Assembly (NCBI RefSeq): GCF_030813055.1
Contig: NZ_JAUSTW010000001.1
Location: 186,001-250,000 of the forward strand
Reading direction: 5' to 3'
Length of the DNA: 64,000 bases
Source: Neobacillus ginsengisoli
GTDB lineage: Bacteria > Bacillota > Bacilli > Bacillales_B > DSM-18226
The notes under the pieces are model-generated. The model was not told the origin of the DNA and made no database searches. It worked only from the letters and a program-made list of their open reading frames with translations. Below, piece after piece: positions 253 through 29,013 of the stretch; position 1 is the stretch's first letter; each line of letters opens with the position of its first letter. Position numbers and translations under genes: made by a program.

Positions 253-408
253 TTGAAGGAGAATGATTATACTCACAAGCCGTTACTCACCAAACGTGAA
301 AGAGAAGTATTCGAACTGTTAGTACAAGACAAAACAACTAAGGAAATCGCTGGTGAATTATTTATAAGCGAAAAAACGGTTCGAAATCATATTTCAAATG
401 TAATGTAG
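253..408 (+). CDS. gerE: gerE, 5' part (codons 1-51), interrupted
   Basis: This is the first part of GerE, the small LuxR-type regulator that acts last in the mother-cell sporulation cascade and controls coat genes together with sigma-K. A TTG start at 253 follows an AAGGAGG ribosome site at 236-242. The frame runs through the conserved TKREREVFELL and SEKTVRNHIS blocks, which cover most of the helix-turn-helix. It then reads N-V-M and stops at TAG 406-408. B. subtilis GerE has 74 residues and continues with an M-Q-K-L-G block, and exactly that continuation is found at 28,933-29,013. The gene is therefore cut by the 28.5-kb element described separately and not simply decayed. Unspliced, the product would lack the end of the recognition region and the C-terminal helix. 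Identity of the fragment is very secure. Confidence 0.93.
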   Translation: MKENDYTHKPLLTKREREVFELLVQDKTTKEIAGELFISEKTVRNHISNVM

Positions 409-414
409 TTTGAA
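393..414. other. Left junction (attL) of the gerE-interrupting element
   Basis: The gerE sequence diverges within AATGTAATG (397-405). Arms TTCAAA (393-398) and TTTGAA (409-414) form a dyad centred on 403/404, as expected around a serine-recombinase crossover site. The sequence shared with the right junction is limited to AATG and ATG, so the exact core is either 397-400 or 403-405. Confidence 0.7.
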
Positions 415-425
415 TGCATAACTGT

Positions 426-460
426 AAAACGCACTCAAGTCAAGGGGTGCGCTTTTTTTC
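426..460. terminator. Terminator just inside the left end of the element
   Basis: CGCAC (430-434) pairs with GTGCG (447-451), flanked by an A run and a T run. It would stop gerE transcripts that enter the element. Confidence 0.6.
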
Positions 461-532
461 TGTAACTTTTTATTTGTTTTGTGCGCATAGAAAAATCCCT
501 CAGTCATATTGTGAAGTAAGAGGTGAATAATC

Positions 533-661
533 ATTAAGAAGCAGCAACCATTAGACCAAGAATTATTATCCCTTTACGATTCATTCACTGATGAACTTGG
601 GATGCTCTGGATATTCAGCGAGAAAGAAAAAAGATTTATTTGGGTAGGAGATGCACCATGA
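533..661 (+). CDS. Small ORF with a possible ATT start
   Basis: An open frame of 42 codons reads IKKQQPLDQELL at its start and ends in WVGDAP. It follows an AGAGGTG ribosome-site-like sequence at 519-525. There is no ATG, GTG or TTG after the in-frame stop at 524, so translation would need ATT, a rare start known from infC. Its TGA (659-661) overlaps the ATG of the next small ORF in an ATGA arrangement, which favours both being translated. It could equally be a decayed gene. Function unknown. Confidence 0.3.
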   Translation: MKKQQPLDQELLSLYDSFTDELGMLWIFSEKEKRFIWVGDAP

Positions 662-765
662 TGTATCCGTATCTGGAAGATGAGACCAACAGTCAAAGCA
701 TTCATTTAGACCACAGGGGGAAATTGTGGCTAAGAGAGGGCTCTACGATAAACAGACTCCTCTAA
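658..765 (+). CDS. Small ORF, 35 aa, coupled to the preceding one
   Basis: The ORF starts MMYPYLEDE and ends at TAA 763-765. A good AGGAG ribosome site lies at 646-650, seven bases upstream. It overlaps the stop of the preceding small ORF by ATGA. I recognise no family. A terminator follows at 806-830. Confidence 0.35.
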   Translation: MMYPYLEDETNSQSIHLDHRGKLWLREGSTINRLL

Positions 766-805
766 CCTGTTTGGGAGTATAAATAAATACAGTTTATATA
801 ACAAG

Positions 806-830
806 TCCTCTTTTCCATAGAGGATTTTTT
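806..830 (+). terminator. Terminator after the first small ORFs
   Basis: TCCTCT (806-811) pairs with AGAGGA (819-824), followed by six T. Confidence 0.7.
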
Positions 831-880
831 GATGTTCCTGTCGAAATAAGGATGTCTAGCAGACTAAAGGAGGAACACCA

Positions 881-26912: not shown

Positions 26913-27044
26913 TCCTAAACCACCACCAGCTAAAAAAAAATAAAAAAAAATAAATTTATTTTTCAGTTTTCCTTTGATTTGAGTATATCACAGTGTATCC
27001 TACAAAAAACAAAATAAACACTAATCGAAAATTGATTATTTTTA

Positions 27045-27072
27045 CATAGGACAATTAATAGATACATAGAGT
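27045..27072 (+). promoter_or_regulatory. Candidate sigma-E-type promoter of the recombinase unit
   Basis: CATA at 27045-27048 and CATAGAGT at 27065-27072 are separated by the same distance as the identical pair before spoVID (54498-54525). CATAGAGT is close to the sigma-E -10 consensus. The element recombinase of skin is known to be expressed in the mother cell under sigma-E. The match is by eye. Confidence 0.45.
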
Positions 27073-27093
27073 AATAGTACGGGGGGAAGGAAC

Positions 27094-27243
27094 ATGAAAA
27101 AGTTCAAATTCAACTTCAAGCCTTCTGATTCGGGTAAACAAGCAGAGGAAATCATCCAGGAACTCGTCGAGCAAACCATCAAAAAAGTCTTAGCGGAGCA
27201 GGAAACAAAGTATTATAATAGATTGAAAGAACATACCTCTTAG
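27094..27243 (+). CDS. 49-aa protein upstream of the recombinase
   Basis: A short gene reads MKKFKFNFKPSDSGKQAEE and ends RLKEHTS with stop at 27241-27243. A GGGGAAGG ribosome site lies just upstream. The middle is an amphipathic helix rich in Glu, Gln and Lys. It is the first gene behind the candidate sigma-E promoter and is followed after 37 bases by the serine recombinase, with a terminator-like hairpin between. Large serine recombinases need a small directionality factor to excise, and SPbeta uses the 58-residue SprB. This protein is a positional candidate for that role. No homology was recognised. Confidence 0.65.
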   Translation: MKKFKFNFKPSDSGKQAEEIIQELVEQTIKKVLAEQETKYYNRLKEHTS

Positions 27244-27264
27244 GAAGCTAAGAGGTATTTTTTT
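27235..27264 (+). terminator. Hairpin between the small gene and the recombinase
   Basis: ACCTCTTAG (27235-27243) pairs with CTAAGAGGT (27248-27256), followed by a T run. It may set a ratio between the small protein and the recombinase by partial termination. Confidence 0.75.
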
Positions 27265-27280
27265 GTATTGGAGGTTTTCC

Positions 27281-28903
27281 ATGAGTAATATTGCAGCCAT
27301 TTATGTTCGTGTATCGACGCAAAAAGAAAGTCAAAAGGATTCACCAGAACACCAAAAAATGCTCTGTGAAGAAAAAGCAAAAGATCTGGGTCTGCAAATT
27401 CAATATGTATATGAAGACCATTCCTCTGGAACAAGCATCATAGGTCGTCCTGAAATTATCAATATGCTGGCTGATGCCCAAAGAGGGTATTTTTCCACCA
27501 TAATATTTGCATCACTTTCCCGTTTTGCGAGGGATACCCAGGACGCCCTTGATTTAAAAAAGAAATTTGTCGATGTATTAGGAATTCGCCTGATTTCAAT
27601 TGAAGACGTGTATGATTCAAAAACAAATAATAATGAAATGATGTTTACAGTTATTAGCGTCATCAACCAAGAACTGTCCAAGCAAATAAGTGTTGCATCA
27701 AAGCGTGGTATTCAAAAAAGCGCATTGAGAGGGAATTTTACAGGAAGCACTGCTCCTTTTGGCTATAAAAAGATATTGATTGATGTAGGGGGCGAAAAAA
27801 GAAAATCTCTCGAAATTCTTCCCGAACAGTCAAAATGGGTTAAGATGATTTTTGGCTTATATGTTCATCAAAACATGGGAGAAAAAGCGATTGTCAATTA
27901 CTTAAACAATGAGGAAGTTCCTGCTCCAAGATCAGGTGCTTGGGGATATAAAAAAAAGGGGGTACTTCAGCAAGATGGAGTTTGGGGAACTACAACCATT
28001 CAAAGGATTCTCCAAAATGAAGCCTATACAGGAAGAAATGTATTTAATAAGTATGAATCAAAAATCATTTACCCAGATATTCATAATACAAGAAACAAGA
28101 AAAAAATATTACGGCAAAGAAATAAAGAAGATTGGATTCGGATGGAAGAGCCATTATGGGAAGCACTCATAGATGATGAAACGTTTCAAAAAGCGCAGGA
28201 AATAAGATTGCTTCGTGGAGGAGGAACACGTGGAGGCATCAGAAAATTAACCGTAAATGCCTTTGCTGGAATTGCAAAATGCGCCCACTGCGGCAGCAAT
28301 TTTGTTTCCATGAAAAGCGGGAAGGTTGGAAAAGAAGGTCAGGAGTACCGATATTTAATCTGTTCCCGTCGAAGAAGGCTTGGGGTCAGCGGATGCGAAA
28401 ATGAGCTATGGGTTCCGTATGAAAAATTTCGGGATGAACTCCTGACTGAATTGACGCTGTTCCTAAGGGATGCCATTGACGTAGAAGCCATAGCAGAAGA
28501 AGTGAAAGTCCCTACCTATAATAAAGAAGATGATGGGAAGCAAAAAATAGAAAAGCTTGAACAGCAAATCAATGAAAACCGCAAATTCATTTTTGAACTG
28601 CGAAAACAGTACATGAGAGGGGACATTAAAGACGAAACGCAGTATCTTTATGAAAAAGGGCTTTTTGAAAAAGAAATTGAAGACCTTTTAAAGAAGCAAC
28701 AAGCGATTACAGTCCGTGAACTTCCAAAACCACCAAGTAATGAAGAGGTAAAAGAGTCAATAAAAAAAGCTTTAGAGGAGCTTCAGCATTTAAACTTTTC
28801 AGATGTCAAAACTTTGCAGATGACGTTGCAGCAGCTTATTCATAAAATTGAAATTTTTAAAGATGGATCAGTGGATGTATATACTCCACTTGGAAAATTA
28901 TAG
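27281..28903 (+). CDS. Large serine recombinase of the gerE element
   Basis: ATG 27281 follows TTGGAGG. The 540-residue enzyme has an N-terminal resolvase catalytic domain (IYVRVSTQ with Ser12; FASLSRFARD with conserved arginines), a recombinase domain from about residue 160 (GNFTGSTAPFGYKK, ILQNEAYTGRN), a zinc ribbon beginning CAHCGSNF near residue 334 and ending with GCEN near 371, and a long coiled coil from about 395 to 480. This is the order of SpoIVCA, which excises skin from sigK. The gene ends 30 bases before the restored part of gerE and reads towards the junction. It is the likely enzyme for both integration and excision. Confidence 0.95.
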   Translation: MSNIAAIYVRVSTQKESQKDSPEHQKMLCEEKAKDLGLQIQYVYEDHSSGTSIIGRPEIINMLADAQRGYFSTIIFASLSRFARDTQDALDLKKKFVDVLGIRLISIEDVYDSKTNNNEMMFTVISVINQELSKQISVASKRGIQKSALRGNFTGSTAPFGYKKILIDVGGEKRKSLEILPEQSKWVKMIFGLYVHQNMGEKAIVNYLNNEEVPAPRSGAWGYKKKGVLQQDGVWGTTTIQRILQNEAYTGRNVFNKYESKIIYPDIHNTRNKKKILRQRNKEDWIRMEEPLWEALIDDETFQKAQEIRLLRGGGTRGGIRKLTVNAFAGIAKCAHCGSNFVSMKSGKVGKEGQEYRYLICSRRRRLGVSGCENELWVPYEKFRDELLTELTLFLRDAIDVEAIAEEVKVPTYNKEDDGKQKIEKLEQQINENRKFIFELRKQYMRGDIKDETQYLYEKGLFEKEIEDLLKKQQAITVRELPKPPSNEEVKESIKKALEELQHLNFSDVKTLQMTLQQLIHKIEIFKDGSVDVYTPLGKL

Positions 28904-28917
28904 GGTGAGTTATGCCA

Positions 28918-28945
28918 CCATATCCAACTTCGAATGCCATGCAAA
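28918..28945. other. Right junction (attR) of the gerE element
   Basis: The gerE frame resumes at AATGCCATG (28933-28941). Upstream bases CATATCCAACTTCG resemble, without matching, the CATATTTCA of the left junction. Cores AATG or ATG are the only exact matches between the junctions. Confidence 0.7.
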
Positions 28946-29013
28946 AGCTTGGTGTCAAGGGGCGTTCACAAGCAGTTGTAGAGCTCCTTCGAATGGGAGA
29001 GCTAGAACTTTAA
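28933..29013 (+). CDS. gerE: gerE, 3' part (last 26 codons)
   Basis: The frame reads NAMQKLGVKGRSQ and ends RMGELEL with TAA at 29011-29013, the known C-terminus of GerE. It has no start or promoter of its own and makes sense only after joining to 253-405. The good preservation of this cut-off end, with no substitutions visible against the expected GerE pattern and an intact stop, argues that the joined gene is still under selection. A hairpin, ACCGGC/GCCGGT, follows at 29015-29047. Confidence 0.93.
   Translation, partial: NAMQKLGVKGRSQAVVELLRMGELEL

Follow-up and report, generated by a model that had tools for sequence, protein, structure and literature searches.

The stretch of DNA analysed here, referred to as the window, comprises 64,000 nucleotides of Neobacillus ginsengisoli (NCBI RefSeq assembly GCF_030813055.1, contig NZ_JAUSTW010000001.1, forward-strand positions 186,001 to 250,000), and coordinates are counted from its first base. 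The start of the window adjoins the upstream side of gerE, a mother-cell gene that regulates the spore coat, which comparison at the sequence level confirms to be split by an element of 28,536 bp, with the crossover at the AA of codon 49 (HISN/AMQK).

gerE is split at codon 49 by a 28.5-kb element

The features that define the split locus are as follows:
253..398, + strand, host 5' part of gerE (the frame continues to 405 in element DNA; Pfam GerE match on 253-405)
397..398, + strand, left crossover dinucleotide AA (attL), placed by the empty site in G044 and by the variation of codons 49-51 at relatives' left ends
399..28932, no strand, inserted element (period 28,536 bp; GC content 34.8% versus 39.5% in the right flank)
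27094..27243, + strand, conserved small open reading frame (ORF) of 49 amino acids, candidate recombination directionality factor by conservation and position
27281..28903, + strand, large serine recombinase with Resolvase, Recombinase and zinc-ribbon domains
28933..28934, + strand, right crossover dinucleotide AA (attR), placed by the empty site in G044 and the 28,536-bp spacing
28933..29013, + strand, host 3' part of gerE (26 residues plus stop codon), from frame reading and comparison with G044

The 5' frame runs from a TTG at 253 to an ATG at 405, followed by TAG, and thus contains 51 codons; the host-derived part is 253-398, that is 48 codons and the AA of codon 49, codons 50-51 being element DNA. 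The 3' part begins at 28933 and ends with the TAA at 29013, its 26 residues completing with the 48 of the 5' part a GerE of 74. The two copies of the AA, at 397-398 and 28933-28934, are one element period of 28,536 bp apart. In G044, a genome of the same genus group, the counterparts of window positions 25-400 (88% identity) and 28929-34066 (83.5%) directly adjoin each other, and its intact GerE is the identical protein to the two window pieces combined, reading HISNAMQKLGV across the join. The right flank is 84% identical to G044 over 2.8 kb and 74-79% identical to Neobacillus niacini (L001); the genes which follow the 3' piece we take to be a MarR-type gene, racE, gerM and rph. At the left ends of the related elements codons 49-51 differ (NVM, NVK, NVI, KEI, KEN, NTM, NEM, NEI, NAT and KEM), which places the edge of the element at the codon-49 AA.

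The first-pass annotation of this DNA had described undamaged 5' and 3' pieces of gerE, of 51 and 26 codons, at the two ends of a 28.5-kb stretch, joining in frame at AATG or ATG, with a serine recombinase abutting the right junction. The end pieces and their integrity are borne out by the intact locus and identical 74-residue protein of G044, and the recombinase does stop 29 bases 5' of the right crossover. The 26 residues of the 3' part also stand, as do the 51 codons as a reading frame; the host share of the 5' part, however, is the 48 codons plus AA given above. The AATG join agrees with HISN/AMQK as found in G044. The ATG join was rejected, as it would give HISNVMQK: G044 has GCC where the left end of the element has GTA, and left-end codons 49-51 are variable.

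The recombinase carries the catalytic Y-x-R-x-S motif, qualifies as a large serine integrase and aligns to YokA (SprA) of SPbeta over residues 14-520. By inspection, the recombinase is preceded in 21/21 loci by a small ORF in which the motif EIIxxLVxxTIxKVL is recognisable, at times in weakened form (the alignment comprised 18 of the 21 and one viral row). The modelled small protein has an extended N-terminus and one long helix (mean predicted local distance difference test score 85, predicted template modelling score 0.48), and a profile search found no relative in the PDB (best E 0.59). Its position, size and linkage to the recombinase suggest a directionality factor. In two related loci an extra stand-alone paralogue of the catalytic domain lies between the small ORF and the full recombinase (L003:9986-10417 and L004:9986-10459), with the motif altered to YVRVAN and YVGVSN versus YVRVST; these paralogues may be inactive partners or regulators.

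Recurrence of the split and a conserved promoter on the recombinase operon

Searching GTDB genomes with 25 aligned related recombinases yielded 34 loci, of which the 20 at 43% identity or more were kept (L001-L019 and L028). In all 20 of these genomes, whose recombinases are the closest, gerE is split after the same codon; 16 of the loci have the 3' piece downstream of the recombinase, no more than 150 bases away in 13 of them, and in the remaining four (L006, L011, L016 and L019) the 5' piece was found within the same locus. The other 14 loci are at most 37% identical; of the nine whose downstream sequence was viewed, eight share another target sequence and L026 is ambiguous. As an aside, L020-L025, L027 and L029 are serine recombinases of 23-26% identity from eight genomes, at one shared site outside gerE with a conserved 3' flank.

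Intact sites were sought with a 47-base exact pattern in the genus group (61 genomes) and the family group (193 genomes) of G001. The earlier proposal to look for an intact gerE in related genomes was answered not only by G044 but by 58/61 genomes of the genus group, the misses being G001, G040 and G073; a same-codon split in 20/20 genomes, set against this figure, is more than would be expected by chance. In the family group the site is intact in 179/193. Half of the 14 misses are split genomes known from the recombinase search (G001, G002, G003, G007, G008, G009 and G015), in four the 5' piece continues into another type of arm (G040, G103, G111 and G144), and in three, G073, G096 and G203, no gerE 5' piece was found; a split 5' piece is therefore present in 11/193 genomes, with two recombinase lineages. 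A search for a second gerE, covering the 20 split relatives of the recombinase scan, gave one strong match per genome in 20/20, further matches being at E 5e-11 or weaker among the matches listed.

The ratio of nonsynonymous to synonymous polymorphism (pN/pS) is low in both split pieces, at 0.08 for the 5' piece (n=21, 38 codons compared) and 0.12 for the 3' piece (n=17, 24 codons compared), with no stop or frameshift in the compared parts. The Bacillaceae 5' pieces alone (n=12) give 0.04, and intact gerE of the genus group (n=31) gives 0.02 and 0, a comparison that is not like for like, two families being represented among the split copies and a single genus among the intact ones.

The second lineage also occurs in viral contigs, where the gerE 3' pattern was found in 15 stretches: L093, L095 and L100 carry the window lineage at 40-46% identity, eleven carry recombinases 25-32% identical to that of the window, and no recombinase was found in the short stretch of L096 that was examined. 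Relatives of one second-lineage recombinase occur in B. pumilus, B. subtilis and the B. cereus group, and the lineage occurs at gerE in G040, G103 and G111, with the 3' piece beside it; the G040 copy has two internal stops, and in G144 the 5' side of gerE only was seen. A relevant precedent is gin, a 28.6-kb element in gerE of B. cereus ATCC10987 and relatives, shown experimentally to be excised specifically in sporulation by GirC with the 42-amino-acid GirX (PMC5595907, Abe et al. 2017). Judged by the hosts named in that paper, the second lineage probably includes GirC. The window recombinase is 29-30% identical to presumptive GirC-type proteins of B. toyonensis and B. paranthracis, and this presumptive GirC lineage forms a supported branch separate from the window lineage. 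Integrases of P. larvae phages are 46-47% identical to the window recombinase, and three near-identical IMG/VR proviruses (L038, L041 and L045) adjoin a gerE 3' piece. In a tree of 48 rows, which left out L003 and L004, 19/22 viral rows fall in one group (93/100) separate from the resident rows.

Ahead of the small ORF and the recombinase lies a conserved promoter of the form TAGKACAA-N10/11-MATA, represented in the window by two features:
27047..27054, + strand, SpoIIID-type box TAGGACAA, a motif shared among relatives' loci
27065..27073, + strand, -10-like element CATAGAGTA, by the spacing of [CA]ATA from the box

TAGKACAA occurs in the 420 bp before the recombinase start in 15/21 loci, where about 0.5 would be expected from 0.025 sites per 420-bp strand in these loci. 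With no motif preset, the most shared 8-mers were ATAGGACA and TAGGACAA, each in 12/21 loci, the maximum in 100 single-base shuffles being 7. [CA]ATA lies 18 or 19 bases past the box at 15/15 operon boxes (null 3.5%) and at 1/43 other TAGKACAA sites of the same loci, gerM boxes among them. The box also stands 29-32 bp ahead of the gerM start in all 11 loci in which gerM was found (13 searched). In the window the gerM box is TAGTACAA at 30573-30580, 29 bp before the likely start ATG at 30602; the start of the longest ORF, at 30569, is unlikely to be the true one. Gel shifts in B. subtilis work showed binding of SpoIIID upstream of gerM, and the gene for the skin recombinase, spoIVCA, is activated by SpoIIID and almost wholly dependent on it (PMC517825). 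The box being shared with gerM, these precedents of binding and activation make TAGKACAA a probable SpoIIID site.

TAGGACAA fits the SpoIIID letter consensus, WWRRACARNY. Within 350 bp this looser consensus is found in 14/21 loci versus 4.2 by shuffling, and in 3/23 viral-contig relatives versus 4.3. TAGKACAA itself was absent upstream of the integrase in all 23 viral-contig relatives (420 bp), and was found in 0/8 second-lineage viral contigs and 0/4 second-lineage genome loci (480 bp for the latter). On the tree the box label is clustered, yet five changes are needed and no single clean clade results. Two simpler rules were rejected: that the box marks every gerE recombinase, in view of these 0/23 and 0/8 plus 0/4, and that it marks non-phage elements only, since a prophage described below carries it.

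Cargo of the element and neighbouring features

The remaining annotated genes of the element are the following:
3735..5564, + strand, PDC-S39/DUF4209 protein, candidate defence (family match)
6652..7974, + strand, tyrosine recombinase (Pfam Phage_integrase)
9741..10277, + strand, second, short tyrosine recombinase (family match)
12302..13288, - strand, NgoFVII-type restriction endonuclease (family match)
13362..14642, + strand, C5 cytosine methylase (family match)
14772..17552, + strand, restriction (AlwI/FokI-like) and C5 methylase fusion in one ORF
17684..20254, + strand, ORF with a match below the NCBIfam cut-off
20226..21272, + strand, MzaD-like DUF4420 protein (family match)
21454..21885, + strand, Vsr endonuclease (family match)
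23863..24963, + strand, NsnA/GmrSD_N protein (family match)
24960..25472, + strand, HEPN protein (family match)
26466..26912, - strand, divergent helix-turn-helix regulator next to the excision operon (with counterparts in L001, L002 and L003)

That the cargo is a defence island and not a phage, as had been proposed, was upheld by a PHROGs scan of 30 element proteins, which found no terminase, portal, capsid or tail families; the matches were to integrases, methylases, repressors, a replication protein and a LysM protein, the last hitting endolysin families through its LysM part. There was no DHH/RecJ match among the element proteins scanned. A complete MZA system is unsupported, with MzaC- and MzaD-like matches only and the former below the NCBIfam cut-off. 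The AlwI/FokI-like fusion ORF (14772-17552) adjoins a second, similar C5 methylase gene, and the two tyrosine recombinases cluster with a MerR-type regulator and a replication-protein-like ORF at 6652-12184, as might be expected of an older mobile element lodged inside the island. Counterparts of the helix-turn-helix regulator were found only in L001, L002 and L003 of the 19 loci compared.

Related elements measure 31.2 kb in N. niacini, 15.4 kb in Bacillus sp. EB01 and 24.1 kb in Bacillus sp. FJAT-27225, and their 49 pooled proteins include type I restriction, SMODS/SAVED (CBASS-type), Shedu, DarT and RecJ-like cargo, with no structural phage family among the best 25 of 35 and the best 25 of 37 families matched. 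The box is present in the EB01 and FJAT-27225 elements and absent from that of N. niacini. In the 39.5-kb element of Mesobacillus persicus (G002, L147-L149), by contrast, the same kind of scan (28 proteins) did detect terminase, portal, head and tail genes, making it a full prophage.

Elsewhere in the window, tRNA-Arg(TCT) occurs twice at 33780-36803, the copies about 2.9 kb apart with 81 identical bases, and once in a 16-kb stretch of G044, possibly reflecting a small insertion at a tRNA gene; a T-box leader RNA lies at 57306-57542.

Proposed developmental excision and comparison with known elements

Taken together, sequence and comparative analysis make it very probable that the island is excised as part of the sporulation programme, restoring gerE in the mother cell, with a SpoIIID-type promoter on the excision operon. 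A non-phage genomic island would have integrated in gerE at the codon-49 AA by means of its large serine recombinase. This enzyme and its small partner protein, the probable directionality factor, would be co-expressed in the mother cell from the SpoIIID-type promoter with its sigmaE/sigmaK-like -10 element, and both proteins would then excise the 28.5-kb island as a circle, restoring gerE before it is needed. The forespore chromosome would retain the island, such that the host passes on the defence genes without losing a functional GerE. The first-pass idea of a gene rejoined by mother-cell excision is thus supported, by the gin precedent, the intact pieces, the single strong gerE match in each of the 20 relatives and the promoter; with the conserved operon and promoter, what was a plausible analogy becomes a specific mechanism that can be tested.

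Several points weigh against this reading. The box is absent in 6/21 loci (L001 and L014-L018), including the close relative L001; it is not confined to defence islands, as the full prophage in gerE of M. persicus bears it. The variant TAGTACAA, found in L012, L013, L019 and at gerM, is off the SpoIIID consensus by one base. The looser consensus is unspecific, occurring at 5/9 recombinases of another site (2.4 by shuffling), and taken alone is therefore weak evidence. Finally, pN/pS cannot tell selection before insertion from selection after it.

This last point lends itself to the view that the element is a recent, passive insertion which has inactivated gerE, with spores defective or GerE dispensable and the recombinase serving transfer only: purifying selection may have acted on the pieces before insertion, and in the compared gerE codons 2 synonymous changes and no others separate the window from G044, a count with little bearing on insertion age. 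However, we consider it very unlikely, given that the pieces stay readable in 20/20 split relatives, which span two families and show low pN/pS and one strong gerE match each; on this view the excision operon would have no use for a conserved sporulation-type promoter, and gin is indeed excised (PMC5595907). Highly improbable, in our judgement, is a mobile island or phage-like relic excised on damage or in growth for transfer, the repair of gerE being a by-product and not developmental: the M. persicus prophage has a related recombinase at the same site, P. larvae phage Xeni_IDv2 entered gerE in laboratory selection with nine bases duplicated (2025; PMC12453123) and the excised form of the C. 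botulinum yin element was present at all time points (PMC10747680), but the SpoIIID-type promoter is found in 15/21 resident loci against 0/23 viral-contig relatives, and gin excision was not induced by mitomycin C (PMC5595907).

Beyond developmental excision of the window island, codon 49 of gerE is likely to be a recurrent developmental harbour, targeted by at least two distantly related serine-recombinase lineages that serve phages and defence islands; one resident lineage would have brought its recombinase and directionality factor under the host SpoIIID switch, so that its islands travel in the spore line and are shed only from the mother cell. The gin case would thereby extend to a wider pattern, with 11/193 genomes in the family group of G001 and two recombinase lineages, and a SpoIIID-type promoter on the excision operon offers a testable rule for how mobile defence islands are tied to host development. 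It also serves as a warning that a spore-former gene annotated as broken may in fact work.

The first-pass annotation took skin in sigK as the established precedent. This holds in that, in B. subtilis, a mother-cell gene is split by a serine-recombinase element whose recombinase gene, spoIVCA, is activated by SpoIIID (PMC517825), although the target is sigK instead of gerE and skin is prophage-like; as the closest precedent it gives way to gin, which lies in gerE (PMC5595907), and the idea is to that extent not new. SPbeta in spsM, vfbin in spoVFB and yin in yabG are likewise serine-recombinase elements in sporulation genes (PMC6957869, PMC10747680), but the genes are others and the elements prophages or prophage-like. 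P. larvae Xeni_IDv2 and the prophage named in gerE of B. glycinifermentans (PMC5595907) share the target gene but are whole phages. Searches of open-licence PubMed Central turned up neither a survey of this recombinase lineage nor a SpoIIID box described for a gerE recombinase.

Interruption of gerE and its excision in sporulation are therefore already published for gin; the window element is not gin. The two are alike in the split of gerE at codons 47-49, the AA as predicted cleavage point, the similar size, the lack of phage structural genes, the restriction-modification cargo and the use of a serine recombinase. They differ in that recJ is conserved in gin of B. cereus strains whereas no recJ homologue was found in the scanned proteins of the window element, and in that gin has three serine recombinases (girA, girB and girC) against one serine and two tyrosine recombinases here. 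Furthermore, girX lies apart from girC in gin, whereas in the window element the small ORF stands directly before the recombinase.

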